Virus record (IMG/VR): IMGVR_UViG_3300004154_000366
Coordinates: 1-23,612 of that record
Reading direction: 5' to 3' (one strand)
Length of the DNA stretch: 23,612 bases
Origin: a virus
A program made the translations under genes and the position numbers. The stretch's first letter is position 1. Each line of letters begins with the position of its first letter. The notes under the pieces are model-generated. The model did not search any database and had not been told where the DNA came from. It was given only the letters and a program-made list of their open reading frames with translations. Below are positions 1 through 13,372 of this stretch, one piece after another.

Positions 1-1806
1 TCAACTAAATCTAAATACTTTGCCCTTTGGTATAAATGGTAAATTACTTCCTTTTGGTATTGAAAATGCATGTTCTCTGTGAACCTTCAAAGGTTCGCAG
101 TAACCGTCAGTAATAATCAAAAGTGGTCCGCTTTTAGGAAAATCTTCAGATTTTTCTAGTAAGTCAACACCAGATTGAAGTATTGTTCCTCCACGTCCTT
201 TTACTTTAACTCTGTCGGCTATGGATTCGGGGGACATATATCCTTGATCATAGACGGCAGCATCGCAGAAGACTACCCTTACATATGGAACATCACGAGA
301 AATACTGTAGCTTGAAATAGCACCTAATGCCTTTGCCAGTAGAGAGCGATCCATTGAACCTGAGGTGTCAAGAATCACCCCATATGTTCGACCATCCTCA
401 GCACCAGCAGCGGGTATCCAACGGGGGCGTGCTATATCAGGAGTAGATGACTGACGTCGGCTAGGACGAGCATATGAACGAACTTTCTCTATAGGTGAGA
501 AGTAATTGTCAAACCATTGAGCAAGCTCGACATCCCAAGGTACAGGAGGTTGACTTAGAGCTCTAATTTCTTCTATAAGTCCTGCTGGTATATATCCACG
601 ACCTTGTTCTTCATGGTAGTAAAGTCCTTGTGATAGTGAGCGGCGATAGAAGTCATCAAGTGTTATTCCGTCGCCAGTTGCCCACCAATAAGGAGTTTCT
701 TTTTCGAGAATATCTCCAAGTCCTGCACCTCTTAATGTTGCCAGTTTTCTGAATTTTCTGCAATCCAATACTATACGGTCATATATAGCTTCGGCGGATA
801 GTCCTTTGAGGTCAGGATCATAAAGGACTCCTATCTTTGGCAATTCTCCAAGGCCCATTTCTACAAGCCAACCGTTGATTACATAGTCACATGCTACATT
901 CCAAAGGTATGGGTCGCGTCCTTGACACCTTGCCTGATGCCTTAAACCTATATGTAGAAGCTCATGTGCCATGACAAACCTGCATTCATATTCATCAAGT
1001 CCAGCAGCAGGATTCATATAAATTTCTTTCATATATGCATTAACAGCAGCAACTGATATATCCATTCTTGCACAAATTATTGGGTCTTCAATGATTGTAA
1101 AACTTGCGGCTAATGCACCAAGAAGAGGGTAACTATTTATAAACCAGTTTTTTGCTTTTACTGCAGTTGTAAGGCTTTTCTTATCAGCACCAAGGAAGGG
1201 TTCATAACCACCAGCAACATTAATGGCGCTGGTTACTGCCATTGAAAGCCCACTTGCAAAACAGGCTGACCAGTCAATTTTGTGTCCATACCAAGATGTA
1301 CATTCTTCCGCCATAATCATGTCACCGCAATTTACGCCTGCTGTGCCAAAGTTGGTCAGAGATGCTGGAATGCCTTTTTCAATAAATTCATTATAAAGTT
1401 TTTCTTCTGATGGAGCCGCAAAATCAATTTTGTACTGCATTTCAGATGGTGCACGTCCAAGCTTCATATCAGCAAGGAACTTTGCAATAAAGCAATCGCA
1501 TGCAGTATTCCAATTAATATTATCGTTTTTTTCCTTAAAGTGCCCCAATCCCAAATGAAGAAGGCAGTGGGCTATGACATAAGCCCACTCAAGTGGTTCT
1601 CCGCGTCTTTTGGGATGGAGATGAAGATAACCGTTTCTTGTTATAACTGCCCATCCCTTTTCAGGACACAGGTTACCTTCCTTTCTTACTTCTTTTACAT
1701 GATAGAGAAGTGGTGAAAACATCGGATGATGATTTATAATGGTATAACCTTTAACATAATTCTCGTATGCGATATCATTTTTAGGGATGTTCTTTTTGTT
1801 TCCCAT
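1..1806 (-). CDS. Duplicated zincin-like metallopeptidase domain plus VWA-like (DUF2201-type) protein
   Basis: This 601-residue protein carries two zinc-peptidase-like segments and a C-terminal von Willebrand A-like domain, the layout of the DUF2201 family. Segment 2 has HELLH (H281, E282, H285) with a further His at 290, followed by WNVACDY. Segment 1 has the same frame, HCLLH (H80, H84, H89) followed by WNTACDC, but Cys81 replaces the catalytic Glu. The VWA part has a MIDAS-like DTSGSM (D480, S482, S484) and a later ITDGYC strand. Members of this family are usually encoded beside a MoxR-type ATPase, as here with a 3-base gap; by analogy the ATPase may remodel a VWA-bound target. Start ATG at 1806 has GGAAAG upstream. 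The stop TGA is the first three bases of the window, so the gene is complete. Substrate is unknown. Host rather than phage gene. Confidence 0.85.
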   Translation of the reverse strand: MGNKKNIPKNDIAYENYVKGYTIINHHPMFSPLLYHVKEVRKEGNLCPEKGWAVITRNGYLHLHPKRRGEPLEWAYVIAHCLLHLGLGHFKEKNDNINWNTACDCFIAKFLADMKLGRAPSEMQYKIDFAAPSEEKLYNEFIEKGIPASLTNFGTAGVNCGDMIMAEECTSWYGHKIDWSACFASGLSMAVTSAINVAGGYEPFLGADKKSLTTAVKAKNWFINSYPLLGALAASFTIIEDPIICARMDISVAAVNAYMKEIYMNPAAGLDEYECRFVMAHELLHIGLRHQARCQGRDPYLWNVACDYVINGWLVEMGLGELPKIGVLYDPDLKGLSAEAIYDRIVLDCRKFRKLATLRGAGLGDILEKETPYWWATGDGITLDDFYRRSLSQGLYYHEEQGRGYIPAGLIEEIRALSQPPVPWDVELAQWFDNYFSPIEKVRSYARPSRRQSSTPDIARPRWIPAAGAEDGRTYGVILDTSGSMDRSLLAKALGAISSYSISRDVPYVRVVFCDAAVYDQGYMSPESIADRVKVKGRGGTILQSGVDLLEKSEDFPKSGPLLIITDGYCEPLKVHREHAFSIPKGSNLPFIPKGKVFRFS

Positions 1807-1809: not shown

Positions 1810-2547
1810 TTATATTTCTTTCCTTTCTACCAGTCTTGGAAGATCACGAACAATATCAACCATAAACCATCCAGGCAAGCCTTGATCATCGTTCTGTTTT
1901 GATACAACCATTTGTGCCATTTCCAGGCTGATTGATGAAAGTTCTTTAATCAGTGCCTTAGCCTCCTCATGCTTTGGAGGCTGTGTCCAGAGATGATCTG
2001 GACGCAAATTAATGTACTCTATAACATATGGATGAATTTCATTTGCCAAAGCCCATTCAAGCCAGTCGTGATGTGAGACCTTAAGATGTACATGCATCAT
2101 ACGGTTTATTAATGCAGATGACATTGGCTTAACTATAGCGCTGTCCTGTGCTCTATTACCAGCACCGATAACAATAGACCCCTTTGGAAGTTCATATTCA
2201 CCAATCCTGTGCTCATGAATAAGGCTATAAAATGCCTTCTGTACCTCCTGTGAACAAGCATTCAGCTCATCTAGGAAGAGGCAGTAAGGTTCTTTTCTTG
2301 CTATCATTTTTGGAGGACAAAACTGACTCACACCATTTGAAATTTGAGGCACACCTATAATATCCTCTGGAGCCAACTGGCTCCCAAGCAAAGAAACACA
2401 AGGGAGTCCGAGTGAATCGGCAAACTGCTGTACCAAAGTAGATTTGCCAATGCCAGGAGGTCCCCAGATAAAGACTGGTCTCACTACTGCTATATTTAAA
2501 AGTAATTCTGATAATTTTTTTTGTGTAACTGTGATTGGTATATTCAT
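1810..2547 (-). CDS. MoxR-type AAA+ ATPase
   Basis: This is a 245-residue AAA+ ATPase. Walker A is GPPGIGKST (residues 29-37), Walker B is LFLDE (90-94), a sensor-1 Asn follows in GAGNR (about 131), and an Arg at about 149 could be the finger. MoxR ATPases act as chaperone-like remodelling enzymes that work with VWA-domain partners. The next gene downstream is such a partner, three bases away, so the two are almost certainly co-transcribed. The protein is somewhat shorter than many MoxR proteins (about 300 residues), with a reduced C-terminal lid. Start ATG at 2547 follows a good GGAGG. The gene begins 13 bases after the end of the prfH fragment, so it was probably expressed from the prfH promoter. 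After prophage insertion it must use another promoter or phage read-through. Confidence 0.9.
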   Translation of the reverse strand: MNIPITVTQKKLSELLLNIAVVRPVFIWGPPGIGKSTLVQQFADSLGLPCVSLLGSQLAPEDIIGVPQISNGVSQFCPPKMIARKEPYCLFLDELNACSQEVQKAFYSLIHEHRIGEYELPKGSIVIGAGNRAQDSAIVKPMSSALINRMMHVHLKVSHHDWLEWALANEIHPYVIEYINLRPDHLWTQPPKHEEAKALIKELSSISLEMAQMVVSKQNDDQGLPGWFMVDIVRDLPRLVERKEI

Positions 2548-2560: not shown

Positions 2561-2827
2561 TTATAACCTTATATTTGCTCTAAGCTTAAATCCCAAACCC
2601 TCATAAGTCCTTACGGGGTTGCCCCTTTCAAGCTCATTATGCTGCATCCACATAGTTCTTTTATGGGTTGAATCGCCCTCGTCATTTTTTGCTTTAATAA
2701 GGTTTGCCAACCTTGCTAAAGCTAATTTTTTATTCATGTACTGTGATCTTTCTTCACTTGCTGTTACTGTTAAGCCTGTTAAAATGTGAATTGCCCTCAC
2801 AGCACTCTCAACTTTGTTTAAATTAGG
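2561..2827 (-). pseudogene. prfH: 3' fragment of prfH (release factor H), cut by the prophage junction
   Basis: The frame encodes the C-terminal part of a class I release-factor-like protein: NKVESAVRAIHI, then SEERSQYMNKKLALARL, then the ending LERGNPVRTYEG that I recognise as typical of PrfH rather than RF1/RF2. In intact family members the segment before NKVES is GGQ-x-V; here it reads P-N-L and meets a TAA at 2828-2830, so homology stops at about position 2818. The codon-recognition half and the GGQ motif are missing. PrfH is linked to RtcB2 RNA ligase and repair of damaged ribosomes. No convincing start codon with a ribosome binding site exists in the fragment (only GTG at 2800). The N-terminal half is expected at the far end of the prophage. 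Confidence 0.85.
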
Positions 2828-2835
2828 TTACAAGT
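2790..2835. other. Prophage/chromosome junction (candidate att site) inside prfH
   Basis: Recognisable prfH coding ends at about 2816-2820 and AT-rich non-host DNA begins directly after it. A site-specific recombination core should therefore lie in or just inside the conserved prfH bases here. Its exact extent cannot be seen from one end, since the matching copy would be at the other prophage end. No tRNA is involved. No integrase is encoded near this end, so it is probably at the other end. Confidence 0.6.
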
Positions 2836-2838
2836 TAT

Positions 2839-2901
2839 ATATTTAATAAAAAATCTTATAATGCTTTATTTTAAAGGGTTATAAGATTTTTTATTAAATA
2901 T
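2839..2901. repeat. Long AT-rich inverted repeat beside the att site
   Basis: The arms 2839-2861 and 2879-2901 are perfect complements over 23 bases, with a 17-base centre that itself can fold (CTTTA/TAAAG). Both outer arms carry A- or T-rich runs. It could be a bidirectional terminator insulating prophage from host transcription, or a protein or recombination site. The sequence alone does not decide. Confidence 0.7.
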
Positions 2902-2941
2902 TCTAACATTTGAATTTTTATGTGTAAACTAAATGTATTTA

Positions 2942-2950
2942 TGGTATAAT
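2942..2950 (+). promoter_or_regulatory. Extended -10 promoter of the ORF-less transcript
   Basis: TGGTATAAT is a consensus extended -10 (TGnTATAAT) with a perfect TATAAT at 2945-2950. No good -35 is seen, which is tolerated by extended -10 promoters. Transcription would start near 2957 and meet the terminator at 3210-3245 with no ORF between. Confidence 0.5.
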
Positions 2951-2956
2951 TAACTT

Positions 2957-3245
2957 AGGCGAAGTTATAATTTAGTGTGATTAAAAGTATACGTATCTTT
3001 CATTCACGAAATAATTAATCATTAAATTCACAACAGAAAGGGGTTGGTATTATCACTTAATTGCGTGGCATTTTGAATTTTATGCAAATTGTAAAACACG
3101 CAGTACCTTTTAAGTAAAGGGTAATTAAAAACACTAAAAGATCGTATAAAAAATTACGCTTAAATGTTCATAATTATGTAATATAGCTGGTCACTATATT
3201 ACCAACATTAAAAAAATACGGTATATATATACCGTATTTTTTTTT
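2957..3245 (+). ncRNA. Candidate structured non-coding RNA of about 290 nt
   Basis: A promoter-like extended -10 lies upstream and a strong terminator ends the unit. No ORF with a ribosome binding site exists between them; the longest start at ATGCAA gives 11 codons. Several nested pairings are visible. ACTTAA (about 3053) pairs with TTAAGT (about 3110), and inside that GCGTG pairs with CACGC around a GCAT/ATGC hairpin. Near the 3' end GTAATATAG and CTATATTAC form a 9-bp hairpin (about 3178-3202). It does not match a riboswitch, tmRNA, 6S or other RNA class that I recognise. Its position at the prophage edge next to a small membrane-peptide gene leaves open a regulatory role. Expression is inferred only. 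Confidence 0.4.
3210..3245 (+). terminator. Intrinsic terminator (palindromic)
   Basis: A perfect palindrome centred at about 3226/3227, with TACGGTATAT on the left arm, is flanked by an A-run on the left and nine or more Ts on the right. It is symmetric, so it can terminate transcription from either side. This would serve the candidate RNA on the plus strand and the small ORF reading leftwards from 3524. Confidence 0.8.
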
Positions 3246-3365
3246 CGCATAATAGCACAAAAACACCTATTCTATTTTTGTCCCTACTTTTTGGTCAGAA
3301 TTTCGGGCATGCGATTTTTATAATTTAATTGATTTTTAATGGTCAACTTCTTAAAAAATTTTATA

Positions 3366-3524
3366 CTAACTATTTATGTAGGAACCAAGTTGTATACCAA
3401 GGGCTGTGAAAATTAGGATTATTTCTATTATTCTAGCATAATAGATTATTTTTTCGTTTTTACTAAATATTGATATTGCTTTGCTACAAGCAACCATCGC
3501 GGCAAATGTTAATAATATTAGCAT
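3366..3524 (-). CDS. Small hydrophobic membrane peptide, possible type I toxin or holin-like
   Basis: This 52-residue ORF is strongly hydrophobic. Residues 1-20 (MLILLTFAAMVACSKAISIF) and about 31-47 look like two membrane helices joined by a charged SKNEK loop. A GTG at 3536 could add four residues. The only Shine-Dalgarno (GGAAAGGA) is one base from that GTG and 13 bases from the ATG, so neither start is ideal. The same Shine-Dalgarno sits in one arm of a stem (3533-3558), which could block initiation. An extended -10 promoter lies at 3570-3575. Small membrane peptides with structured leaders occur in type I toxin-antitoxin systems and as phage holin-like proteins. I do not recognise a specific family. 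Confidence 0.45.
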   Translation of the reverse strand: MLILLTFAAMVACSKAISIFSKNEKIIYYARIIEIILIFTALGIQLGSYINS

Positions 3525-3532
3525 AATTAAGT

Positions 3533-3558
3533 GCACGTCCTTTCCGAATAGGATGTGC
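3533..3558 (-). promoter_or_regulatory. 5' UTR stem occluding the Shine-Dalgarno of the small membrane peptide
   Basis: On the minus strand GCACaTCCT pairs with AGGAcGTGC (one A.C mismatch) around a short loop. The right arm contains the AGGA of the only ribosome binding site. This is the usual geometry for structure-controlled translation. Confidence 0.45.
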
Positions 3559-3569
3559 TACCCATAATA

Positions 3570-3575
3570 AGTATA
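3570..3575 (-). promoter_or_regulatory. Promoter -10 of the small membrane peptide gene
   Basis: On the minus strand TGTTATACT is an extended -10; a weak TTACTA lies 17 bases upstream as a possible -35. The start of transcription would fall near 3563, giving a leader of about 40 nt that includes the occluding stem. Confidence 0.4.
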
Positions 3576-3778
3576 ACATATATTCAATATTTTAGTAACT
3601 AGAATCAAGAATTTTATATAATTTCACAGCGTATAGAAACGGTTATAGTGTGTTAAGTGAATTTGTTTAAATAAAATTAGGATAAATAAGAAAGAAATAT
3701 TTTTATTATAAAATAAAGACAAATTGGTGATTATCAGGTAAAATAATTATGTTAATATAAATAAAGGGGAATATACAT

Positions 3779-4119
3779 ATGAATAATAACATCCTTTAGT
3801 AAATGTTAATAATACTGCTCCAAATGGGGATTATTATACCGAAATTGAAAGATACTGTAATGATTTTGTAAAATTATCAGGGTGTGATAATCTTGAAATG
3901 TTAGGAGATTATATTGAAAATTTATGTAGATTGAAATTAATTGATGTTGATTTTGATAGTGAACTAGTTAATAATGAAGGATATATTCAAATAGAAAAAC
4001 GACTTAAATTTTATTATAAAGAGATTAAAGGCATTAGCAGTATTGAATTTCATAGAGGTTGTTTAATAATTACTAAATTTGGATGGAATTTTTGTAAAAC
4101 TTGTATATCCGAGTTTTAG
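3779..4119 (+). pseudogene. Frameshifted DUF4393-like remnant
   Basis: ATG at 3779 follows AAAGGGGA at ideal spacing but meets TAG after six codons (3797-3799). Adding one base at the T-run 3795-3797 joins it to a long frame that continues in register through VNNTAPNGDYYTEIERYC and on to the stop at 4119, giving about 113 residues. The later part (IENLCRLKLID, then GCLIITKFGWNFCKTCI) resembles the C-terminal region of DUF4393 proteins, which end in a similar LTxFGxxFxxxCI strand-helix. The family is normally longer than 200 residues, so this looks like a truncated and frameshifted copy. Alternatively a short intact product starts at ATG 3898, but it has only a poor ribosome binding site. Family assignment is tentative. 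Confidence 0.45.
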
Positions 4120-4142
4120 AACGATATATTTTTTACAAAAAG

Positions 4143-4175
4143 AAAGACCTCTAAATTATCTTAGAGGTCTTTAAT
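4143..4175. terminator. Bidirectional terminator between convergent genes
   Basis: AAAGACCTCTAA and TTAGAGGTCTTT form a perfect 12-bp stem around ATTATC. A-rich and T-rich flanks exist on both sides, suiting the convergent plus-strand remnant and the minus-strand DUF960 gene. Confidence 0.85.
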
Positions 4176-4181
4176 ATTGTT

Positions 4182-4487
4182 TTAATATTCTTCAGCTTTC
4201 ATTATACTTATATATTCATGATTATCAATTATAAATATTTTGCCTGTATAAATGGCTTCAATAGGTACATCAACTAAGTATAGTACTTGCTGAAATTGCG
4301 GAATGTCTTGATGATGTATTATTACTTGTGTATGACCTTTAAGATTTTGAAATTCGAATACTTGTAAATAATCACGTTCTATAGTCATTTTTGATATTGT
4401 GCCAATCATTATATGTATCAAGTAACTATCTAAATCTGATGCTATACCTTGGGTGCAAACTATTTGTTTCTTATCGAATTCAAACAT
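4182..4487 (-). CDS. DUF960-family protein
   Basis: This is a 101-residue soluble protein. The pattern DYLQVFEFQN, then a Q-x-I-x-H-x-Q-x-x-P-x-F stretch, and a C-terminal KIFIIDNHEY...KAEEY matches my recollection of DUF960, a small family of unknown function frequent in Firmicute phages and plasmids. Length fits the family. The start ATG at 4487 overlaps the last codons of the upstream small gene, so translation is likely coupled. The bidirectional terminator at 4143-4175 follows. No function can be assigned. Confidence 0.65.
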   Translation of the reverse strand: MFEFDKKQIVCTQGIASDLDSYLIHIMIGTISKMTIERDYLQVFEFQNLKGHTQVIIHHQDIPQFQQVLYLVDVPIEAIYTGKIFIIDNHEYISIMKAEEY

Positions 4488-4647
4488 TATTAGATTCCTC
4501 CTGTGTCATTTTAGACTGTTTTATTTGTTTTTTTAATAATCTATATTGCTTCAATTCTTCCTTGAATTTTAATGGTGTTTTGGGATATATTACAATTGCT
4601 TCACCTTCGTTAGTTATTTTACGTCCATAAAAAATATTATTAGCCAT
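4480..4647 (-). CDS. Small basic hypothetical protein coupled to the DUF960 gene
   Basis: This 55-codon ORF starts at ATG 4647 with GAAAGGA eight bases upstream, a clear ribosome binding site. Its stop TGA lies inside the first codons of the DUF960 gene (8-base overlap), a typical translational coupling. The N-terminal half looks like a beta structure (GEAIVIYPKTPLKF) and the C-terminal half is a Lys/Gln-rich amphipathic helix. No family is recognised. It may work together with the DUF960 product. Confidence 0.6.
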   Translation of the reverse strand: MANNIFYGRKITNEGEAIVIYPKTPLKFKEELKQYRLLKKQIKQSKMTQEESNNV

Positions 4648-4780
4648 TTATGTAATCCTTTCTATAATTAATTATGTGTCCCTAGAAGCCAATTTTAAGG
4701 ATTTATTTATATAAGGTAATATAAAATAATTACTTTATATTCTTGGGAATTCTAGAGGTTCACATTGTTTTTTTACATGA

Positions 4781-4805
4781 AAAAGAGGACTTTTGGTCCT
4801 CTTCA
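4781..4805 (-). terminator. Intrinsic terminator of the 4818-5309 gene
   Basis: AAGAGGAC and GTCCTCTT pair around a 5-base loop; reading on the minus strand the stem is followed by a run of Ts. It begins 13 bases after the stop codon. Confidence 0.85.
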
Positions 4806-4817
4806 TCATCTTAATTA

Positions 4818-5309
4818 TTATTTTGTTTCCTTAATGTTATGTAATTTATTAATGCCGTAGTCAATTGCTTTTTCGAAGAGTTCTGGGAAGTCAACTTTAA
4901 GTCTTGTAATTGCCACTAAATTATCCAAATTATACATTATGGTTAACAACATTTGATGTTCCTCTGATTTAGTTTTGGAAGCTTTAGTTGTTGTTGTTTG
5001 GACTTCGAGGTTTAAACCTTCGATGTAACTATTTAAGGTTGCTTTTTCTTTGTTGCTTAAGTATTTTGCAGCTGATTTGAAAACTGTTGGGTAAAATTCG
5101 TAAATTTCTTTGATGTCGTCTTTGTTATTAATATGTAACTTTAAAGCGTCAATCATTGTGTTATTGTTTATCATTCCAGATGCCCCTTTAGCGATAAAAA
5201 TACGACATACTTTTTTAACTTCGATTTTTGCTGTTTCCTCTTTAACTGTTGCTACCTCTGCATTTGTTTTTGTTGTTTGATTTTTCATAAAAATCATCCA
5301 TCCTTTCAT
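4818..5309 (-). CDS. Hypothetical prophage protein, Lys/Thr-rich with helical C-terminus
   Basis: The frame from 5309 encodes 163 residues; no family is recognised. Several starts are possible. The first ATG touches GTAAGGA with no spacing, so translation more likely begins at ATG 5297 (MIFMKN, three bases after AAGGATGG) or ATG 5288 (MKNQTT, 12 bases after AAGGA). A low-complexity, charged N-terminal part is followed by a strand-like KVCRIFIAKG and then a mostly helical region with a Thr/Lys linker around residues 104-114. It has its own promoter (5381-5409) and terminator and is transcribed leftwards as a single gene. This suggests a product made independently of the lytic operon, perhaps in the lysogen. 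Base composition is phage-like. Confidence 0.6.
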   Translation of the reverse strand: MKGWMIFMKNQTTKTNAEVATVKEETAKIEVKKVCRIFIAKGASGMINNNTMIDALKLHINNKDDIKEIYEFYPTVFKSAAKYLSNKEKATLNSYIEGLNLEVQTTTTKASKTKSEEHQMLLTIMYNLDNLVAITRLKVDFPELFEKAIDYGINKLHNIKETK

Positions 5310-5380
5310 TCCTTACATATTAATTTATCAATGTTCATATGGTTAAGTTTTGCGTTGTTGTAAGTATTTACCATAATTAA

Positions 5381-5409
5381 ATTATATCAGGCTTACAATG
5401 CAATGTAAA
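5381..5409 (-). promoter_or_regulatory. Sigma-A promoter with overlapping imperfect palindrome
   Basis: On the minus strand TTTACA (-35), a 17-base spacer and TATAAT (-10) form a near-consensus vegetative promoter for the gene at 4818-5309. The -35 and spacer contain TTACA-n-TGCA-n-TGTAA, an imperfect palindrome that could be an operator. Confidence 0.75.
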
Positions 5410-5423
5410 CGGTTTATTAATAA

Positions 5424-5443
5424 ATTTTGTCGTATTTTGTCGT
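5424..5443. repeat. Two tandem 10-bp repeats upstream of the promoter
   Basis: ATTTTGTCGT occurs twice head to tail, directly upstream of the -35 of the leftward promoter. The 10-bp period places both copies on the same face of the helix, as expected for a bound regulator. Confidence 0.7.
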
Positions 5444-5488
5444 TTTTTTTCTGTGACATATAGTGACTTATGTTTTTTCTAGTAAAAA

Positions 5489-5520
5489 AGCTGCTACACT
5501 AATTTCTTAGTGTAGCAGCT
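5489..5520 (-). terminator. Strong terminator overlapping the end of the GIY-YIG gene
   Basis: A 14-bp perfect stem (AGCTGCTACACTAA with its complement) closes a GAAA tetraloop on the minus strand and is followed by TTTTTT. The 5' arm encodes the last residues and the TAA stop of the endonuclease gene. Confidence 0.9.
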
Positions 5521-6166
5521 CCCTTTTTAATTTATACCAAATTCTTGTACTAACATTATATTTAGTAATAAATTCTTTTCGTGAAATATTATTATTATAA
5601 TCACTTATCATTTCATATGTTATAGGAATTTTTTTGGCTTCTAAAAGTTTTTGTTTATGTTCTTCTGAAAGTTTTTTACCTTTATTAGTTTTTGATAGTT
5701 TATTTTTTGTTTCTTCAGAATGATGTTTACCATAAAATGGATGATGTTTACCTTTTCTTTTTTTACCTTTATTTTTTCCTTTATTTGCTTCAGATATTTT
5801 TCTTTTTGTTTCTTCTGAAATTTTTTTACCTTTTTCAGATTCTGATATTTTTTGTTTAGTTTCTTCTGTATGTTTATTACTATTTCCACCTTCGCGAAGA
5901 TTATAACCATCAGGAGCTAAAGTTTTAAGAATGTTAATATATAAAGTTTCAAAAATATTTAAGTCTTCTTCATTACATTCCTGAACAACTTTAAATTCAA
6001 AATTATCTTCACCATATTTATTCCAAGCTTTTTGTAAATAATTATTATAATGATTATTTTTTCTTAAAGATTTTAAGTGTTGTTTCCATCTATCTTCAAT
6101 ATCATGTGCTTGTCCTATATAATGTTTACTATTTACTTTGTTTGTAATTCTATAAATTCCAATCAT
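5507..6166 (-). CDS. GIY-YIG homing endonuclease with NUMOD3 repeats (copy 1)
   Basis: From ATG 6166 (AAAGGA ten bases upstream) this encodes 219 residues; an upstream in-frame start at 6223 has no ribosome binding site. The N-terminal GIY-YIG nuclease domain shows GIY (3-5), YIG (16-18), the catalytic Arg26, the metal-binding Glu73 and Asn89. Residues about 98-195 contain repeated [15 protein letters not shown] units, typical NUMOD3 DNA-binding motifs, and the last 30 residues look like a helix-turn-helix ([19 protein letters not shown]). Free-standing enzymes of this kind cut phage DNA at a recognition site and spread their own gene. It faces against the lytic operon, with its own terminator. 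Copy 3 at 17407 is a close paralogue with the same residue numbering. Confidence 0.9.
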
Positions 6167-6394
6167 TTTTTGTACATCCTTTTTTATAATTATAAAATAC
6201 AAAAAATGTAAAGTTTTTAACAAGATTTACTGACATGTATTTTACAAATGATAATTTATATTACTTTTCAAAATAAGAGAATTGGAACCATCAAAACGGG
6301 ACTAATAACAAAACAAATTTACATAAAGTTTTCTAATAATTATTCCGATAATATAAAAGTAAAATAAATCAAAGAAATGGATGGTGATAATATT
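6167..6394. other. Intergenic region between divergent genes
   Basis: This 228-bp AT-rich gap separates the leftward and rightward transcription units, so it should hold promoters for both. Candidate elements (TTTACA at about 6319, GATAAT near 6350) do not sit at a standard spacing, so I cannot name a promoter with confidence. Confidence 0.4.
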
Positions 6395-6679
6395 ATGGCA
6401 GGAAGTTCAAAATATGATGATGCTTTCAAAGAAGAAGTTAAACAAATGGTTGTGGAAGGTAAAACATTTAAAGAGATAAGTGAAGAAAAGAAAATTGCTG
6501 TGCAAACCATTAGAGATTGGGTAAATGGTAAAAAGGAAAGGAAATCTAAGAAAGGTACAAATGAAGAACTTGAAGCAGCATTCGAAACTATCCGTAATGT
6601 TATCAAATCAAAAGACGATGAAATAGAGCGGTTAAAGAGTAAATTATATAAATTTAAAGAACTTGTTGGTGACCTGTAG
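6395..6679 (+). CDS. Small HTH protein with C-terminal coiled coil (IS3 OrfA-like fold)
   Basis: From ATG 6395 (GGTGAT upstream) this encodes 94 residues. Residues about 5-45 (YDDAFKEEVKQMV through VQTIRDWVNG) form a helix-turn-helix similar to the N-terminal domain of IS3/IS911 OrfA. The rest is a Lys/Glu-rich helix with heptad-like leucines ending in LKSKLYKFKELV, likely a dimerising coiled coil. There is no OrfB transposase or terminal repeat nearby, so it is a stand-alone DNA-binding protein rather than an insertion sequence. As the first rightward gene after the divergent intergenic region it could regulate phage transcription. Confidence 0.65.
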   Translation: MAGSSKYDDAFKEEVKQMVVEGKTFKEISEEKKIAVQTIRDWVNGKKERKSKKGTNEELEAAFETIRNVIKSKDDEIERLKSKLYKFKELVGDL

Positions 6680-6762
6680 AATCAATTTTTAGAATCAAAA
6701 TCTTGTTTATGCATTTCTTTATTCAAACCTTAAAAACTTAGTTTAAAATCAATCTAGTCCCA

Positions 6763-6800
6763 AATCATATCACTAGCTTTATTAGTAGTGTGATATGATT
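6763..6800. repeat. 11-bp inverted repeat
   Basis: AATCATATCAC (6763-6773) is the exact complement of GTGATATGATT (6790-6800). No T-run follows on either strand, so it is not an obvious terminator. It lies in the leader of the 6843 gene and could be an operator or mRNA hairpin. Confidence 0.6.
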
Positions 6801-6842
6801 AAAAATGATATTTTTATGTCATATTTTAGAAAGGATAGTATC

Positions 6843-7127
6843 ATGATTTATTCTAAAATTATTATAAATGGTGATGAACAATTAGTTTCTGAAGCTATAC
6901 AGTATTTATTAGATAATTATCCTGATATGGATTTTGAAGAACAAAAATTATTTAATGAATTATCTTTCTACGATAATAGTTTCGCTGAAGATGAAATTGA
7001 AAAGTTTGTTGAAAATTTCCAAGATTTAATAATAGAGATTGAACAAGTAACCATTGATGCAAAAAATAAAATTCATAAGAAATACGTTTATAAAAACGGC
7101 GAAAATATTTTATTTCAGAAAGGATGA
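6843..7127 (+). CDS. Hypothetical acidic phage protein
   Basis: This encodes 94 residues from ATG 6843, which has AGAAAGGA nine bases upstream. An earlier in-frame ATG at 6795 lies at the edge of the inverted repeat and has no ribosome binding site. The protein is acidic, predicted mostly helical, with a short strand at the start (MIYSKIIING). No family is recognised. It is followed seven bases later by another small gene with the same style of ribosome binding site, so the two form an operon. Confidence 0.6.
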   Translation: MIYSKIIINGDEQLVSEAIQYLLDNYPDMDFEEQKLFNELSFYDNSFAEDEIEKFVENFQDLIIEIEQVTIDAKNKIHKKYVYKNGENILFQKG

Positions 7128-7133
7128 TTATCA

Positions 7134-7385
7134 ATGAATAATTGGAAAAAGAATGCAGTTGATAATGAAGATATCTATGAACAAAAATTGGAGTGGGAAA
7201 AATTATGGAATAATGCCAATAACTTCATTAATATGTCATTAGCTGAAAAGGATAAATTTATTGATGAAGCAATTGCTTGGAAAGTAGATGAAATAATAAT
7301 TGAAATAAGCAAAAATAGTAATTTAACTGAAGAGCAGAAAAGGAAAATTGACAATTATTTTAATAAGAGTAAAGACTCTAAATGA
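7134..7385 (+). CDS. Hypothetical small helical phage protein
   Basis: This encodes 83 residues, starting at ATG 7134 with AGAAAGGATGA upstream, six bases after the previous stop. The composition is helix-rich and charged, with several Trp residues in the N-terminal third (NNWKK, EWEKLW) and a Lys-rich tail. No family or motif is recognised. Confidence 0.6.
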   Translation: MNNWKKNAVDNEDIYEQKLEWEKLWNNANNFINMSLAEKDKFIDEAIAWKVDEIIIEISKNSNLTEEQKRKIDNYFNKSKDSK

Positions 7386-7549
7386 AATTTTAGAACGAAA
7401 GAACACTTAATTTTAATTTAAGCTGTTATTTTTTATATCAATAAAATTAAAGTGTTGATATAGCTGAATTTTAAGTGTAAGTAGAAATAATTTTAAATTA
7501 GTTAAAAATATAATGAACTGCGTTCTAGTGTTCTAGAAAGGGTGATATA

Positions 7550-7891
7550 ATGAATGTTAAACCTATAATTGGAATATATGGAATACACAATAAAACAACT
7601 AAGAAATGGTATATTGGACAATCAGATGATATTAGAGGGCGTTTAAAAGACCATCTAAATAATTTAAATGCTAATAATAGTAAAGAAAGTGAATTGCTAC
7701 AAGAGGATTGGAATAAATATGGGCAGCATGATTTTAAGTTTAAAATAATACAAAAAATTGATGATGATAAACTCCTTGATACAATGGAAAAAATCTACAT
7801 ACATGCTTTTAGAAGTTTTGCTGATGAAGAAGATGGTGGTGGGTATAACTTAACGGAAGGTGGTAAAGATGGTAGACAAGCTAGATATTGA
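7550..7891 (+). CDS. Short GIY-YIG endonuclease (copy 2, no NUMOD domain)
   Basis: This encodes 113 residues from ATG 7550, with AGAAAGGGTGAT upstream. The nuclease domain is complete: GIY (8-10), YIG (21-23), Arg29/31, Glu80 and Asn100 in GGGYNLTEGG. Unlike copies 1 and 3 it ends right after the domain and lacks the NUMOD3 DNA-binding repeats. It is either a minimal homing endonuclease or one that lost its specificity domain. It is clearly diverged from the other two copies. The 165-bp gap before it contains AT-rich imperfect inverted repeats (CACTTAA-type arms). The downstream gene starts inside its last codons, so its EGGKDG region also provides that gene's ribosome binding site. Confidence 0.85.
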   Translation: MNVKPIIGIYGIHNKTTKKWYIGQSDDIRGRLKDHLNNLNANNSKESELLQEDWNKYGQHDFKFKIIQKIDDDKLLDTMEKIYIHAFRSFADEEDGGGYNLTEGGKDGRQARY

Positions 7892-8180
7892 TGATTATGA
7901 TAATGATACTGTTGATAATATATTAGATGAAATGGATAAAAGATGTATATTATTATGGATGGGTAGTAATGGTATTGATGAAACTATAGATAGTTTATTA
8001 TTTACATCGGATATATCTTTTCTATCTTTTATTGAAAAAGATGAAAGATTTAATGAATTGTTAGATGAAAAGCAAATGCAAAAAGTAATCGATGCATTAA
8101 TAACATATAATATGCTTGGTATTGAAGAATTTAGAAAAAGATATTGTAAAGTAAAAAAACCGGGACGTGTTAATAAGTAA
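7869..8180 (+). CDS. Hypothetical acidic phage protein overlapping the GIY-YIG gene
   Basis: This encodes 103 residues from ATG 7869 with GGAAGGTGG just upstream; a GTG at 7860 is in frame but lies inside that ribosome binding site. It overlaps the endonuclease gene by 23 bases. The protein is acidic and helical with a basic C-terminal tail (KVKKPGRVNK). No family is recognised. The overlap suggests that the endonuclease gene is fixed in this operon and not a very recent arrival. Confidence 0.6.
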   Translation: MVDKLDIDDYDNDTVDNILDEMDKRCILLWMGSNGIDETIDSLLFTSDISFLSFIEKDERFNELLDEKQMQKVIDALITYNMLGIEEFRKRYCKVKKPGRVNK

Positions 8181-8207
8181 GACTTGTTCCGCTTCGCTTC
8201 ACAAGTC
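8181..8207. repeat. Short hairpin with iteron-like arms
   Basis: GACTTGT (8181-8187) and ACAAGTC (8201-8207) are perfect complements directly after the stop codon. Both contain the GACTT/AAGTC core of the array at 8378-8479. Confidence 0.5.
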
Positions 8208-8214
8208 AGATAGA

Positions 8215-8259
8215 CAGATACCAGATGATGTAGTTTTTGTCTGGTATTTTCTTATCTGA
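8215..8259 (+). terminator. Intrinsic terminator
   Basis: ATACCAGA (8218-8225) pairs with TCTGGTAT (8240-8247) and is followed by a T-run. An outer CAGATA/TATCTG pair could extend the structure. It closes the small-gene operon before the iteron region. Confidence 0.65.
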
Positions 8260-8377
8260 AAAGTAAAGTTCTGTTTTTATGTTTAAAAGAATGTATATTG
8301 TTTATTGTATATTGTATAGCGGCATTTTTAAAATCATATCAAATACTGTTATCTGTAGTTCTTTGGGATTTCATCAC

Positions 8378-8479
8378 AAGTCAACTTTAAGTCAACTTTA
8401 AGTCAACATTAGGACAATTGTTAATTATTTCAAGTCAACTTTAAGTCAATATTCAAGTCAATGACTTAATATTTGACTT
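8378..8479. repeat. Phased AAGTCAA array (iteron-like)
   Basis: AAGTCAA occurs at 8378, 8389, 8400, 8432, 8443 and 8455, spaced 11 or 12 bases inside each group. A perfect inverted copy (TTGACTT) is at 8473-8479 and a 6-of-7 inverted copy at 8461-8467. One-turn spacing puts the sites on the same helix face. Iteron arrays bind replication initiators or repressors cooperatively. Confidence 0.85.
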
Positions 8480-8509
8480 GAAAAGAATGGTACAAATTTT
8501 AAAAATATC

Positions 8510-8518
8510 TGTTATAAA
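8510..8518 (+). promoter_or_regulatory. Extended -10 promoter before the MerR-like gene
   Basis: TGTTATAAA fits an extended -10. The start site would fall near 8525, at the edge of the inverted repeat 8526-8554, so a protein bound there would block transcription. The -35 (GTACAA) is weak. Confidence 0.4.
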
Positions 8519-8525
8519 TATGATG

Positions 8526-8554
8526 CGTTATTTGTATTATATTTACAAATAACG
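8526..8554. repeat. 10-bp inverted repeat, possible operator
   Basis: CGTTATTTGT (8526-8535) and ACAAATAACG (8545-8554) are perfect complements separated by nine A/T bases. It covers the predicted start of transcription of the MerR-like gene and ends just before its ribosome binding site. Confidence 0.7.
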
Positions 8555-8571
8555 GCAAGGTGGTAAGAAAA

Positions 8572-8754
8572 ATGAAGATTTTTTATGAAATGCAGGATTT
8601 GTTAAAAAGGTTTGATATTCCCAGACAGACTATGTATCGTTGGATAGAAAAATACGATATATATTATGAAAATACAGATACAGGAAGAAGAATATATACT
8701 GAAAGGACAGTTGAAGAAATAAAAAGATTATTAGAAATTAAAGGTAGGAGTTAA
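8572..8754 (+). CDS. MerR/excisionase-like winged-helix DNA-binding protein
   Basis: This 60-residue protein starts at ATG 8572 with AAGGTGG seven bases upstream. It is essentially one MerR-type DNA-binding domain: helix-turn-helix (EMQDLLKRFDIPRQTMYRW), a wing with TGRRIYTERTVEEIKRL, and no effector domain. Proteins of this size act as excisionases, small repressors, or partners of plasmid and phage initiators. The inverted repeat at 8526-8554 upstream is a likely site for its own control. The next gene starts five bases after the stop, so it is co-transcribed with the putative initiator. Confidence 0.8.
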   Translation: MKIFYEMQDLLKRFDIPRQTMYRWIEKYDIYYENTDTGRRIYTERTVEEIKRLLEIKGRS

Positions 8755-8758
8755 AATA

Positions 8759-10012
8759 ATGGGTAAATGGTTTCCGCTAAAAGATGAATTATTATATGAT
8801 TATTCGATAAAAGCTAGGACTAAAAAAGTTTTGGCGATCTTATATCACCATAAAAATAATAGTTCAATAGTTAAAACAACACATGCTAATTTAGATAAAT
8901 GGACGGGTATAAGCAATTCCAAAAGATATCTAAATGAATTAATTAACTTTGGATATGTTGAAAAAATTAAGGACGGAGAATATAAATTAAAGTACAGGGT
9001 TAACTTTCAAGATAAAAAGAAATCGGAAATAAGTAAGAAAGATTATGAACATGTTGAAAGGTACACTAAAATTGAATATGACCATATATTTAATTATAAT
9101 CCTGAAGATGTAATCAACTATTATATCATTACTAATATCCTTAGAATGAACAAATTTGACCCTTCTGACATTAATAAAATCGATGTTAAGATTTTGTTAT
9201 CAAGTAAAAATGATAAATCACCTTGGAATACGATAGAGGAAGTAAATGATGTGATAAATAATCTTAAAGAGAAAGAAATGTTAAATTATGAAATCACTTT
9301 ACAATGTTTAATTCGGGTACCAGATGAAGATGGTGAAGATGACGACATAATAAAAACTGCTCCTGAAGAACAGGAAGCAGTATTAGATAAAGTGGTTTCC
9401 GATAATATAATACAAAATTCAGGTAATAAAATAACTAATGAACTAGAAGATTTTTTCGGAAAAGAACGAGCTGAACAATTAATTGTAATAGCGAAGAAGA
9501 ATGAAATTGAAATCACTTTAGAAAACCTTTCTATACTTCATAACTATAAAACAAAAGCACAGAAAAATGATACTGCTGAAGGTTTAGTTGATTATTTTTA
9601 TCAAAAATCCGGACAACCAAACACATTTAAGAACACAATTAAATATGTTGAAAAGATAAAGAAGCTTATTCAATCTAAAGGATTTATAAAAACTAGATTT
9701 TTAGTTGAATATGCAATTGAAATAAGGAATGTCAATACGTTAAACTTTGTTGATACTCTTTATGAACAGGCGCACAGTTATATTTTAAATAAGATACGTG
9801 ACGAAATAGACCTAACAAAAGCTGAATGTTCAACCATTGCAATGTCTCTGAAAGATTTAAGGCCTAAAGCTGAACAAATTAAACAGCAATATGGCGAACA
9901 ATCGGAACAATATAAAGAAATTAAAAATCAGTATAATCTTAAATATAATGAATTTAAAACTACTGAAGAAAAGTTGAATTTGTTAGAACATTTATTAAAA
10001 GGTGGGGATTAA
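8759..10012 (+). CDS. Putative phage replication initiator / replisome organiser (winged helix)
   Basis: This encodes 417 residues from ATG 8759 with GGTAGGAG upstream. Residues about 15-75 (KARTKKVLAILYHHK through YVEKIKDGEYKLKYR) resemble a winged-helix domain of the kind found at the N-terminus of phage replication initiators. A central acidic linker (about residues 185-205) is followed by helical regions and a C-terminal coiled coil (about 360-410). No helicase or primase motifs are seen. Its position, directly after the iteron-like array and a MerR-like partner, is the main reason for proposing a replication role. An alternative is a large transcription regulator. No DnaC-type loader is found next to it. 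Confidence 0.5.
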   Translation: MGKWFPLKDELLYDYSIKARTKKVLAILYHHKNNSSIVKTTHANLDKWTGISNSKRYLNELINFGYVEKIKDGEYKLKYRVNFQDKKKSEISKKDYEHVERYTKIEYDHIFNYNPEDVINYYIITNILRMNKFDPSDINKIDVKILLSSKNDKSPWNTIEEVNDVINNLKEKEMLNYEITLQCLIRVPDEDGEDDDIIKTAPEEQEAVLDKVVSDNIIQNSGNKITNELEDFFGKERAEQLIVIAKKNEIEITLENLSILHNYKTKAQKNDTAEGLVDYFYQKSGQPNTFKNTIKYVEKIKKLIQSKGFIKTRFLVEYAIEIRNVNTLNFVDTLYEQAHSYILNKIRDEIDLTKAECSTIAMSLKDLRPKAEQIKQQYGEQSEQYKEIKNQYNLKYNEFKTTEEKLNLLEHLLKGGD

Positions 10013-10014
10013 AA

Positions 10015-10221
10015 ATGTCTTTCTATACTGATTATAAAAGTTTAAAAAAATATATGGATGAAAATGATTACTGGGCAATAAAATTCGTTTACAAACATTT
10101 ATCAGAAGCTAAAAAAAACTATGTAGCTAAGTATTTAGTTGCAGTAGAATTAAGTGAAAATATACCTGATAAAAAAGAATTTCTTAAACGATTATATGAT
10201 GATATTCCAGATCCATTATAA
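10015..10221 (+). CDS. Hypothetical small phage protein
   Basis: This encodes 68 residues from ATG 10015, two bases after the preceding stop and with AAAGGTGGGGA upstream, so it is in the same operon as the putative initiator. The protein is predicted fully helical with several Tyr residues and an acidic end (DDIPDPL). No family is recognised. Confidence 0.6.
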   Translation: MSFYTDYKSLKKYMDENDYWAIKFVYKHLSEAKKNYVAKYLVAVELSENIPDKKEFLKRLYDDIPDPL

Positions 10222-10268
10222 AAAAATAAGTATATGGGAAAAGATAAGAAATAATAGGAGAGAAAATA

Positions 10269-10820
10269 GTGATGCAAGAAAATAATGGGTATGAAAAAAG
10301 AAGGAATTACGGAGACTCTAAGATTAAAAAGTCACAAGAAATATTCGCATCAGCAATAAGAAAGAATAATCCCAATGCAAAAATACAGGGTAAAATAGCT
10401 AACGTAGAACTTGATACGAAAAAGAGTACTGACCTTGTGTTCAATATTGATGGACAAGAATATTACTCTGGCTTAAGAAATAGAAAATCAGATTGCACTT
10501 GCAGAGATTTTACCGTAAGAAAAGATTTCTTTCAAAGCACAAATAGTGAAGCAAAGAAAATACACAATACCGACTATTACATTTATACATGGGGAGGTGA
10601 ATGTGAAGAGTATATAGTATTGGACACACAAAAAATAATGGAAGCAGGATTAATTAAAAAACGAAGAAATAGTCAATACATTCCGAATGTAGATGATGGG
10701 AACCATTTCTTTTCGATACCACTTAACGAATTATTTTATAAAGGTTGTATTATTGATTATAGTGAATCATTAGAACCATACATGGAAGGATTCGATCCGT
10801 CAGAAGATATTTGGAACTAA
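10269..10820 (+). CDS. Hypothetical phage protein, possible nuclease-like fold
   Basis: This encodes 183 residues if started at GTG 10269 (eight bases after AGGAG) or 182 from the adjacent ATG 10272. The N-terminal third is basic and helical. The middle has alternating strands with conserved-looking polar residues: DLVFNIDGQEYYSGLRNRK, a CTCRDFTVRKD stretch and DYYIYTWGG. The D...D...R pattern and basic middle are reminiscent of PDDEXK-type nucleases, but I cannot place the catalytic residues and make no firm call. It sits between replication-type genes and the resolvase, which fits a DNA-processing role. Confidence 0.5.
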   Translation: MMQENNGYEKRRNYGDSKIKKSQEIFASAIRKNNPNAKIQGKIANVELDTKKSTDLVFNIDGQEYYSGLRNRKSDCTCRDFTVRKDFFQSTNSEAKKIHNTDYYIYTWGGECEEYIVLDTQKIMEAGLIKKRRNSQYIPNVDDGNHFFSIPLNELFYKGCIIDYSESLEPYMEGFDPSEDIWN

Positions 10821-10838
10821 ATATAATATATTATATTA

Positions 10839-10866
10839 TTGCTATTCAAATCCATTATGATATAAT
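10839..10866 (+). promoter_or_regulatory. Promoter before the 10898 gene
   Basis: TTGCTA, a 16-base spacer and a perfect TATAAT at 10861-10866 precede the ribosome binding site (GGAGG) of the next gene by about 20 bases. It restarts transcription after the replication operon. Confidence 0.65.
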
Positions 10867-10897
10867 AGTGGTAAATATCTTTGTGGAGGTTGTATTT

Positions 10898-11179
10898 ATG
10901 AATGAAATTGAAAAAATAAATTTTAGTACAAAAATTCTTCAATTAGCTGGTGAAACATTAGATGAATCAAAAATATTAACTGAACAGGAATTTGATTCTA
11001 TTATTGATTCAGAAACATTATCAAAAAAAGAAAAATATGAAAAAATGCGAACACATTTAGATGTTTCATCATTATTATACTGTAGTAAACTGATTGATAA
11101 AGTATTTAAAGCTTATTTTCATTTCTTAGAAACTTCAGAGATTAAATTATCCAATTCTGATAGTAATATAGATAGATAA
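10898..11179 (+). CDS. Hypothetical helical phage protein
   Basis: This encodes 93 residues from ATG 10898, with TGGAGG about ten bases upstream; the longer upstream frame crosses the promoter and is not used. It is a charged, helix-rich protein with a C-terminal segment HFLETSEIKLSNSDSN. No family is recognised. It has its own promoter (10839-10866) and a strong terminator at 11237-11273, so it is a single-gene transcription unit within the lytic region. That is unusual for such a small gene and hints at separate timing, for example as a regulator or host-takeover factor. Confidence 0.6.
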   Translation: MNEIEKINFSTKILQLAGETLDESKILTEQEFDSIIDSETLSKKEKYEKMRTHLDVSSLLYCSKLIDKVFKAYFHFLETSEIKLSNSDSNIDR

Positions 11180-11236
11180 TTTGTTTTAGCTCTATTAAAA
11201 ATAAAAAACATATAAAAGGTAATCTATTTCTTATGG

Positions 11237-11273
11237 AATAACAGGATGCAATTAAGTTCTCCTGTTATTTTTA
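11237..11273 (+). terminator. Intrinsic terminator
   Basis: AATAACAGGA (11237-11246) pairs with TCCTGTTATT (11260-11269), followed by a T-rich run. It closes the transcription unit that starts at the 10839-10866 promoter. Confidence 0.85.
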
Positions 11274-11310
11274 TTATGTCCAAGTATATTTGAAAAATAA
11301 AGGTGATTTA

Positions 11311-11772
11311 ATGATACTCGGACTTGATATTTCTCTTAATTCTTCAGGTATAGCTATACTTGATAATAATAAACAACTTATTTTTTACGATACTATCCAA
11401 CCACCCAAAAACATGTCAGAAGAAGAAAAACTTATCTATATACAAAATTATATTCACAAATTATTAAAAATATATCAAGTGACACATGCAGTTATAGAGG
11501 ATACTTTCTTTGGTTCTAACATTAAAACTCTTAAAACATTAATGAAAGTACATGGTATAGTAATTAGTAAGTTAAATGATCATTTAATTTTATATACTTA
11601 CGCTACACCAACATCTATTAAGAAAAATATCTTAGGTAATGTTCCCAAAAACAATAGTAAATTAGCAGTTCAACAGGAAATGTGTAAATTATACCCAACA
11701 TTAAAAACTAACCTAAAAAACGACATATATGATGCTATCAGTATCGCTCTCTTCTTTCTCTCGCAACGATAG
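11311..11772 (+). CDS. RuvC-like Holliday junction resolvase
   Basis: This encodes 153 residues from ATG 11311 with AAAGGTGAT upstream; the longer upstream frame has no ribosome binding site of its own. The RuvC fold is clear: strand 1 LGLDISLNSSGIAIL with Asp6, an internal VIEDTFFG with Glu63, and the C-terminal NDIYDAISIA with Asp138 and Asp141, giving the four acidic residues of the active site. Length is close to bacterial RuvC. In phages such enzymes resolve branched DNA before packaging. It lies upstream of the regulator and packaging genes, the usual place. Confidence 0.9.
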   Translation: MILGLDISLNSSGIAILDNNKQLIFYDTIQPPKNMSEEEKLIYIQNYIHKLLKIYQVTHAVIEDTFFGSNIKTLKTLMKVHGIVISKLNDHLILYTYATPTSIKKNILGNVPKNNSKLAVQQEMCKLYPTLKTNLKNDIYDAISIALFFLSQR

Positions 11773-11824
11773 TTATAAATACTTAGTAAACATGTATTTA
11801 AATAATAAAGTGGAGGAGAGAGAA

Positions 11825-12199
11825 ATGAATGATAATAATTTAAATGTAAGAATTAATGATGGCTGGCAAAACAAGAGCTCTGAAACAGATTTTTTAGATT
11901 TTATTGATTATTCAAATATCGACACAATTGAAGCACTATATAGACTTTACAATACAATTTATAAGTATGTTGAAAAGGGAAACACAGCATGGGCAAGTAT
12001 ACTAGCTGACTTAGATAAAGCTATTGAACATGCAAACTTAAATGATAAACAAAAGCAGTGTATTGAACAATACTTAATTAATAATAGCAAAATTGAAGAA
12101 GTAGCATACGATATGAATTTAGTAAAAAGTACGATATGGCAACACACAAGAAGTGCGTGCAAAAAGATAAGTAAGTATTTATCATGGAGTAAAGAATAA
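11825..12199 (+). CDS. Sigma-70 region 4-like / ArpU-type late transcription regulator
   Basis: This encodes 124 residues from ATG 11825, preceded by GTGGAGGAGAG. The C-terminal half (about 72-118) resembles sigma region 4: a helix LNDKQKQCIEQYLI, the scaffold EEVAYDMNL and recognition helix STIWQHTRSACKKISKYL. Similar small proteins (ArpU and sigma-like phage regulators) sit just before the packaging genes in Firmicute phages and switch on late transcription. The N-terminal part has no recognised domain. The stop shares a base with the next start (TAATG), so the genes are coupled. Confidence 0.75.
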   Translation: MNDNNLNVRINDGWQNKSSETDFLDFIDYSNIDTIEALYRLYNTIYKYVEKGNTAWASILADLDKAIEHANLNDKQKQCIEQYLINNSKIEEVAYDMNLVKSTIWQHTRSACKKISKYLSWSKE

Positions 12200-12465
12200 T
12201 GAATAATGAAATAGAAACACTCTTTAAGTTCTTAAATGAATCTCTAGAACTTTTTAATTCCGATTATGTAAAACTACTTAACTGTTGCAATTGCAGTGAT
12301 TTAGCAGTCACAGAGTTAGAACAAATATTATTTTATACTAAAATACAATATACATTATTTACAGTGTATAAAGAGTACGACAGCTTAGATTACAACTTAG
12401 ATAAAATGGAAGAATTCATATTATATTTAGTACAAGCAATAAAGGAGAAAAACGATGACAATTGA
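12199..12465 (+). CDS. Hypothetical small helical protein coupled to the sigma-like gene
   Basis: This encodes 88 residues. The ATG at 12199 overlaps the preceding TAA by one base (TAATG), and AGTAAAG is only a weak ribosome binding site, so translation relies on coupling. The protein is acidic and helical with a CCNC cluster (about residues 28-31) that is unlikely to be a zinc site on its own. Partnership with the sigma-like protein is possible from the coupling but not shown by any motif. Confidence 0.55.
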   Translation: MNNEIETLFKFLNESLELFNSDYVKLLNCCNCSDLAVTELEQILFYTKIQYTLFTVYKEYDSLDYNLDKMEEFILYLVQAIKEKNDDN

Positions 12466-12601
12466 AATATATGCTGACAACAAAAAGCAGGAACTAACTA
12501 TAAGGGATGTAAACGGTAATATAAAGACAATAACATACAATGAATTTTTAGAGGTGTTCAAATATGGACGAAATAGTAAAAAGACTTATAAACAAAGTTA
12601 A
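12455..12601 (+). CDS. Hypothetical 48-residue protein
   Basis: ATG 12455 has an excellent AAAGGAG eight bases upstream, which argues for real translation. It overlaps the previous gene by 11 bases and the next gene by 38. The first half looks like paired strands (TIEIYAD, QELTIRDVNGNIKTITYNE), the end is basic (GRNSKKTYKQS). No family is recognised. Confidence 0.55.
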   Translation: MTIEIYADNKKQELTIRDVNGNIKTITYNEFLEVFKYGRNSKKTYKQS

Positions 12602-12776
12602 ATATAAATGCGTAGATATAGAAGAACTTAGACAGCAAGCATACTTAATAATACTAGAGTTCCCAAATTTAACTGAAGATCAAATGTATTGGAAGCTACA
12701 ATATTATAATAATAAGCAAAATGTGTATCAAAAGAGATATAAAAACGGGATGATAGAAGATACAGGTATTATATAA
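12564..12776 (+). CDS. Hypothetical small phage protein
   Basis: This encodes 70 residues from ATG 12564 with GAGGTG seven bases upstream, inside the end of the preceding small gene. The sequence is mainly helical with a Tyr/Asn/Gln-rich stretch (WKLQYYNNKQNVYQKRY). No family is recognised. It is the last gene before the terminator at 12914. Confidence 0.55.
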   Translation: MDEIVKRLINKVKYKCVDIEELRQQAYLIILEFPNLTEDQMYWKLQYYNNKQNVYQKRYKNGMIEDTGII

Positions 12777-12913
12777 TGTTTAAAATATTACTCTAAAAAT
12801 AATTTAATAAACATGAAAAAAACATATGTGCAAACAGTATTATATTATGTAAGGCAATTTAAGCAATATTAAAGTAATTTAAAAAACCAAAAAGAACATA
12901 TTAAAAGTGGTTT

Positions 12914-12941
12914 AAGGAGAGCTAATTAACTCTCCTTTTTT
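12914..12941 (+). terminator. Intrinsic terminator before the packaging module
   Basis: AAGGAGAG and CTCTCCTT form an 8-bp stem around CTAATTAA, followed by a run of six Ts. Flanking AAGAACA and TGTTCTT could extend the structure. It separates the middle region from the HNH/terminase genes. Confidence 0.9.
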
Positions 12942-12963
12942 GTTCTTAAAAAGAGTGATAAAC

Positions 12964-13269
12964 ATGAAATACAAAGATAATGTAAGAGACTTTTATCAAA
13001 CAAATGCATGGAAGAAAACAAGACTATTAGCTTTACAACGCGATTATTATTTATGCCAACACTGCTTAAAACAAAATACTATTCAATCAGCAAATGTAGT
13101 ACATCACATCATTGAAATAACAAACGAAAACTTAAATGAATATGGATTAGACTTAAACAACTTAATATCTCTATGTAGAGAATGCCATGAATCATTACAC
13201 GGCAGATTAAATAATAAAGAAGAAACATATTACTTTGATAAAAATGGTAATATAGTTCCTATTAAATAA
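12964..13269 (+). CDS. HNH endonuclease (packaging-associated)
   Basis: This encodes 101 residues from ATG 12964; upstream in-frame codons overlap the terminator. It is a compact HNH domain: zinc ligands Cys31 and Cys34 (CQHC) and Cys71 and Cys74 (CREC), catalytic His in VVHHI (47/48), Asn66 in LNNLISL and His at 75/79 (CHESLHG). Small HNH proteins directly next to the terminase genes are typical of cos-type HK97-like phages, where they assist terminase in cutting at cos. The GC-richer region after it (13268-13345) would be the natural cos. A homing role is less likely given size and place. Confidence 0.9.
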   Translation: MKYKDNVRDFYQTNAWKKTRLLALQRDYYLCQHCLKQNTIQSANVVHHIIEITNENLNEYGLDLNNLISLCRECHESLHGRLNNKEETYYFDKNGNIVPIK

Positions 13270-13372
13270 AATCCCGAAGTGCAGCATACCCCCCATATGA
13301 AAAATCCCGCAAGTACAGCTCTACACCGCAGCCCCGTTCTTCTTAACCCAGACAGTAAATCGCAGCAAAGGG
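13268..13372. other. Candidate cos region with imperfect direct repeats
   Basis: Between the HNH gene and terS is a 130-bp gap with no ORF and much higher GC than its surroundings. Two related blocks, AAAATCCCGAAGTGCAGC (13268-13285) and AAAATCCCGCAAGTACAGC (13301-13319), are separated by a C-run. They are followed by CGCAGCCCCG and, later, CGCAGCAAAGGGG. Location and repeat content fit terminase binding and cutting sites. The actual nick positions cannot be seen. Confidence 0.45.

Follow-up and report, generated by a model that had tools for sequence, protein, structure and literature searches.

A probable prophage insertion directly after the GGQ codons of prfH in a Clostridia host

A linear IMG/VR virus record of 23,612 bases, analysed over its full length and called here the window, carries the structural genes of a phage contiguous with bacterial genes, and the two meet inside a broken prfH gene. 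The question this locus raises is whether the break marks the attachment site of a prophage and, if it does, what the insertion would mean for the host. We consider it likely that a temperate tailed phage integrated into prfH of a host among the Clostridia, a relative of Anaerobacterium and Ruminiclostridium, by way of its own large serine recombinase, with the crossover directly after the GGQ codons. The features on which this reading draws are collected in Table 1.

Table 1. Features of the window and of the overlapping contig (L206 coordinates where indicated)
Feature	Position	Strand	Evidence
DUF2201/VWA-like gene, host, next in operon	1..1806	-	Pfam DUF2201_N + DUF2201; order matches L005, L007
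AAA (MoxR-like) ATPase, host, downstream of prfH	1810..2547	-	Pfam AAA_5; 95% identity to Anaerobacterium
prfH C-terminal piece, host half of proposed attL	2561..2821	-	TIGR03072; alignment to 10 intact PrfH
Host/phage crossover interval, codons for N-V of GGQ-N-V	2819..2827	.	Comparison with uninterrupted prfH of 11 relatives
Proposed prophage, left part (with its continuation in G395, at least 31.2 kb in all)	2822..23612	+	Phage families; 99.99% overlap with G395
Long hairpin, A+T-rich, shortly inside the phage end	2840..2901	.	Fold energy -23.7 kcal/mol, z -10.3; self-match
Terminase large subunit	13827..15518	+	phrog_9, E 6e-139
Portal protein	15534..16739	+	phrog_12, E 1.5e-67
Major head protein	18035..19174	+	phrog_10, E 9e-52
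Tape measure protein, cut by record end	22452..23612	+	phrog_12798, E 7e-50; full 1076 codons in G395
Large serine recombinase, end opposite the prfH junction	L206 11573-12454		Resolvase + Recombinase domains

The broken prfH gene and its intact relatives

The first 2.8 kb of the window is bacterial and consists of the DUF2201/VWA gene, the AAA ATPase gene and a piece of prfH that encodes the C-terminal 86 codons without GGQ. Read on the minus strand from 2821 to 2561, this piece translates as LNKVESAVRAIHILTGLTVTASEERSQYMNKKLALARLANLIKAKNDEGDSTHKRTMWMQHNELERGNPVRTYEGLGFKLRANIRL, followed by a stop. The TIGR03072 PrfH model, 200 positions long, matches it over positions 123-197 only (79 bits, E 3.9e-24), Pfam RF-1 matches it as well (E 3.8e-13), and intact PrfH proteins from related genomes reach at most 79% identity to it; together these values place the identification far above chance and bear out the initial annotation, which had read a PrfH C-terminus from this strand. 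The piece fits the PrfH model rather than RF1/RF2, and the relatives that it matches pass the curated cut-off.

The same annotation had put the end of homology, where GGQ-x-V should come, at about 2818, a few bases from where we place it. Homology to PrfH starts at the Asn following GGQ-x-V: in frame, the break reads NL*PN-L-NKVESAVRA (asterisk, stop), whereas relatives read GPGGQNV-NKVE(T/S)AVRA. Just before the conserved Asn the codon is TTA, as against GTN in relatives; a TAA stop ends the prfH frame three codons into the foreign DNA, and past the break only a few scattered bases are held in common with prfH. From the TTA in place of GTN, the absence of the GGQ codons and the TAA stop, the break falls within about 2819-2827, and attR or attP would be needed to resolve the exact crossover point inside this interval. 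GGQ does not stand in the frame, which breaks just before it, and the piece is a fragment and no working PrfH. Moreover, the first start codon in the remaining frame is a GTG within the conserved region, so that, with GGQ missing and the stop early, no functional PrfH is expected from the C-terminal side.

In related hosts the gene is whole. PrfH is present in 13 of the 58 genomes of the host's order, and a comparison of the kind suggested in the initial annotation found it uninterrupted, with both halves contiguous, in all 13; among 391 Clostridia genomes, each of the eight PrfH genes is intact in frame. Since prfH is whole in these relatives and broken here, the interruption arose in this lineage. 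The empty, phage-free sites come from related genera only, and the nearest relatives share only about 78-82% DNA identity over the prfH fragment.

Anaerobacterium chartisolvens carries rtcB, prfH (213 aa, intact), AAA and VWA, in that order, and Ruminiclostridium cellobioparum carries prfH, AAA and VWA at a contig end; the AAA protein of the window is 95% identical to that of the former and 93% identical to that of the latter. The uninterrupted order rtcB-prfH-AAA-VWA is found in L005, and prfH-AAA-VWA in L007. In relatives, rtcB lies beside intact prfH (L005, L238, L239, L240, L241, L242), on the upstream side in the closest ones, and in the window record it falls outside. No AAA gene was detected within several kb around rtcB-prfH in L238, L240, L241 and L242; AAA-VWA is therefore tied to rtcB-prfH in part of the group only. 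In L239 (G408:C387), where rtcB-prfH is intact, the start of AAA is fused directly to the end of VWA, as if AAA-VWA had mostly been lost by deletion. A second viral contig that carries the AAA gene (L085) has no detectable prfH beside it.

The dN/dS ratio of the prfH fragment against the two nearest relatives is 0.13-0.17, and that between the intact genes of those two relatives is about 0.22 (0.075/0.335). The still open frame and a ratio similar to that of intact genes would fit a recent insertion, albeit weakly, because synonymous sites are saturated in the comparison with most relatives.

The phage and its recombinase

At the break, GC falls from about 0.4 on the host side to about 0.25, and head and tail genes follow, so the initial reading of AT-rich, phage-like DNA from this point holds. 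The terminase, portal, protease, capsid and tape-measure genes to the right of the break were assigned by matches to phage family profiles. The first 1.07 kb of the phage side (2822-3897) is non-coding, AT-rich and contains two strong inverted repeats. The hairpin at 2840-2901 (Table 1) is possibly a two-way terminator. Further in, the plus strand of 2950-3250 has a TATAAT box just upstream, a folding z-score of -5.0 and, at its end, a perfect hairpin with a T run (3210-3245), and is possibly a phage non-coding RNA; Rfam holds no family for it, and gave nothing convincing near the junction.

Because the record stops within the tape-measure gene, the N-terminal half of prfH, and with it attR, would lie beyond the window. 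A terminase search of IMG/VR returned a second contig of the phage, G395 (IMGVR_UViG_3300027796_000047), which differs from window positions 10601-23612 at a single one of 13,012 bases and extends 10.4 kb further. The extension contains the remaining tail genes, a holin, an amidase, a GIY-YIG gene and, as its terminal gene, a large serine recombinase, of which 294 residues are present before the contig ends and cuts off the C-terminal part. Neither the window nor G395 contains an N-terminal piece of PrfH; these are both of the contigs that hold this phage, and both stop before attR.

A recombinase gene next to the attachment site is a common arrangement in circular phage genomes. Lying opposite the prfH junction, this gene would adjoin the attachment site once the phage is circular, and its position supports a site-specific insertion with the prfH junction as attL. 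In IMG/VR the recombinase has no relative besides G395 itself, and its identity to phage records is about 33% at most; none was found at E 1e-30 in the 58 genomes of the host's order, and three distant relatives occur among the 391 Clostridia genomes. The gene at the left end of the phage (4818-5309) has no relative in IMG/VR, and thus no free-phage contig spanning attP was found.

The phage also carries at least four GIY-YIG genes (window 5507-6223, 7550-7891 and 17407-17955; L206 10709-11344), most of them with NUMOD3 motifs. Two of the phage's GIY-YIG genes, oppositely oriented, share 77% DNA identity over about 540 bases.

Origin of the junction and search for further cases

We propose that the large serine recombinase would join attP of the phage to attB in prfH, giving attL at about 2819-2827, and that this phage's own recombinase produced the junction seen here. 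The predicted attR would hold the N-terminal half of prfH, ending near GGQ without the last approximately 85 residues, with rtcB behind it.

It is unlikely, in our estimation, that prfH was instead truncated by another event, such as a deletion or a small element, and that the prophage lies beside this scar, its true att site being at another point of 2822-3897. Such a history would account for the stretch of roughly 1 kb, AT-rich and non-coding, that separates the break from the first phage gene and contains inverted repeats, and the true phage end could sit further in within it. The locus also decays by other routes: relative to L005 and L006, the adjacent AAA gene has independently lost 108 codons in frame (245 versus 353 residues), the flanking parts remaining 88-95% identical to relatives, and one relative has lost most of AAA-VWA. 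Given this separate loss in AAA, decay of the operon may have set in earlier and independently of the phage. On the other hand, the composition is phage-like already over 2822-3250, and a clean end at a single point together with a serine recombinase at the far end requires no second event.

That the junction is an assembly chimera of a bacterial and a phage contig seems very improbable, even though it is present in one record of one assembly and G395 falls short of it: the join coincides exactly with one of the most conserved points of a coding sequence, there is no long shared repeat to mislead an assembler, and G395 confirms the phage part of the record over 13 kb. Least probable of all is a hybrid PrfH completed in the lysogen by a C-terminal half that the phage supplies at attR; some phages do rebuild the 3' end of their target gene and attR lies outside both contigs, but about 85 replacement codons would be required and the window has no PrfH-like sequence beyond the host piece (G395 was examined for the N-terminal half only).

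No second insertion of a phage into prfH was found in IMG/VR, in the 391 Clostridia genomes or in an E. coli sample. Scans of IMG/VR with the C-terminus and the N-terminus of PrfH gave no second gene split at GGQ; all matches were unsplit PrfH or RF2- and ArfB-like genes, some cut by a contig end. For E. coli, a sample of 40 rows drawn across 5,399 records contained prfH either complete or as deletion alleles, never broken at GGQ. Within the collections searched, the GGQ codons thus appear to be no general target for phages. The initial annotation had proposed that the phage uses this conserved stretch as its attB; the interruption of prfH after GGQ and the serine recombinase at the far end speak for this use, but it does not recur in the searched collections, and the proposal therefore rests on a single case.

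The scans also returned 18 putatively viral contigs (L263-L280, IMG/VR, about 5 to 608 kb, many of 67-608 kb) that encode PrfH with GGQ in frame, in 12 of which an RtcB match adjoins PrfH or lies near it. A survey of jumbo phages names RtcB, not PrfH (PMC7824862). Phage-borne RtcB-PrfH ribosome repair merits a separate look.

Predicted consequences for ribosome rescue and repair

Under the integration that we favour, the lysogen would be left without a working PrfH, the stop in the phage DNA leaving no phage-supplied start ahead of the conserved region; RtcB would stay with its partner lost, and the insertion may also cut AAA and VWA off from the operon promoter. When 16S rRNA has been cleaved, E. 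coli PrfH occupies the A site of the ribosome and triggers peptide release, after which RtcB2 reseals the rRNA (PMC9223846). The gene broken here is the same and adjoins rtcB in related genomes; however, the function was demonstrated in E. coli and is putative in these Clostridia, with rtcB outside the record. With PrfH lost, RtcB-PrfH ribosome repair is probably impaired in the lysogen. The loss may be partial, since overexpressed RtcB2 could protect even without functional prfH (PMC9223846).

Excision would be expected to restore prfH exactly, as at any such attB, so that the disruption is plausibly reversible. We are doubtful that the prophage acts as a switch that turns RtcB-PrfH repair off on integration and on again on excision, placing ribosome rescue under phage control.

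Phage insertion into genes is a familiar event, for which prfH is a new target gene; our literature search turned up no prophage described in this gene. Coding genes split by elements that carry serine recombinases are well known, and skin in sigK of Clostridioides difficile is likewise a phage-like element moved by a large serine recombinase (PMC5025042). There, however, excision is needed for sporulation and has been shown experimentally, whereas the prfH prophage has a different target and is known from the proposed attL side. Restoration of a gene by phage excision is also established, as with the Sa3int prophage in hlb and prophages in comK, which likewise sit in coding genes; conditional excision was demonstrated in those cases, while ours is a case read from sequence (PMC6597384). 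Natural inactivation of prfH has a precedent in E. coli K-12, where the cause is an approximately 1-kb deletion (PMC1586002) rather than a phage.

With this insertion, prfH, split at its catalytic loop, would join the genes that serve as phage insertion sites, and the recombinase, whose relatives in the collections searched do not exceed about 40% identity, would be one with a defined coding target. Should the insertion be common among the hosts, phage carriage would decide whether a cell can rescue and repair cleaved ribosomes, and lysogeny would be linked to sensitivity to ribosome-cutting toxins.
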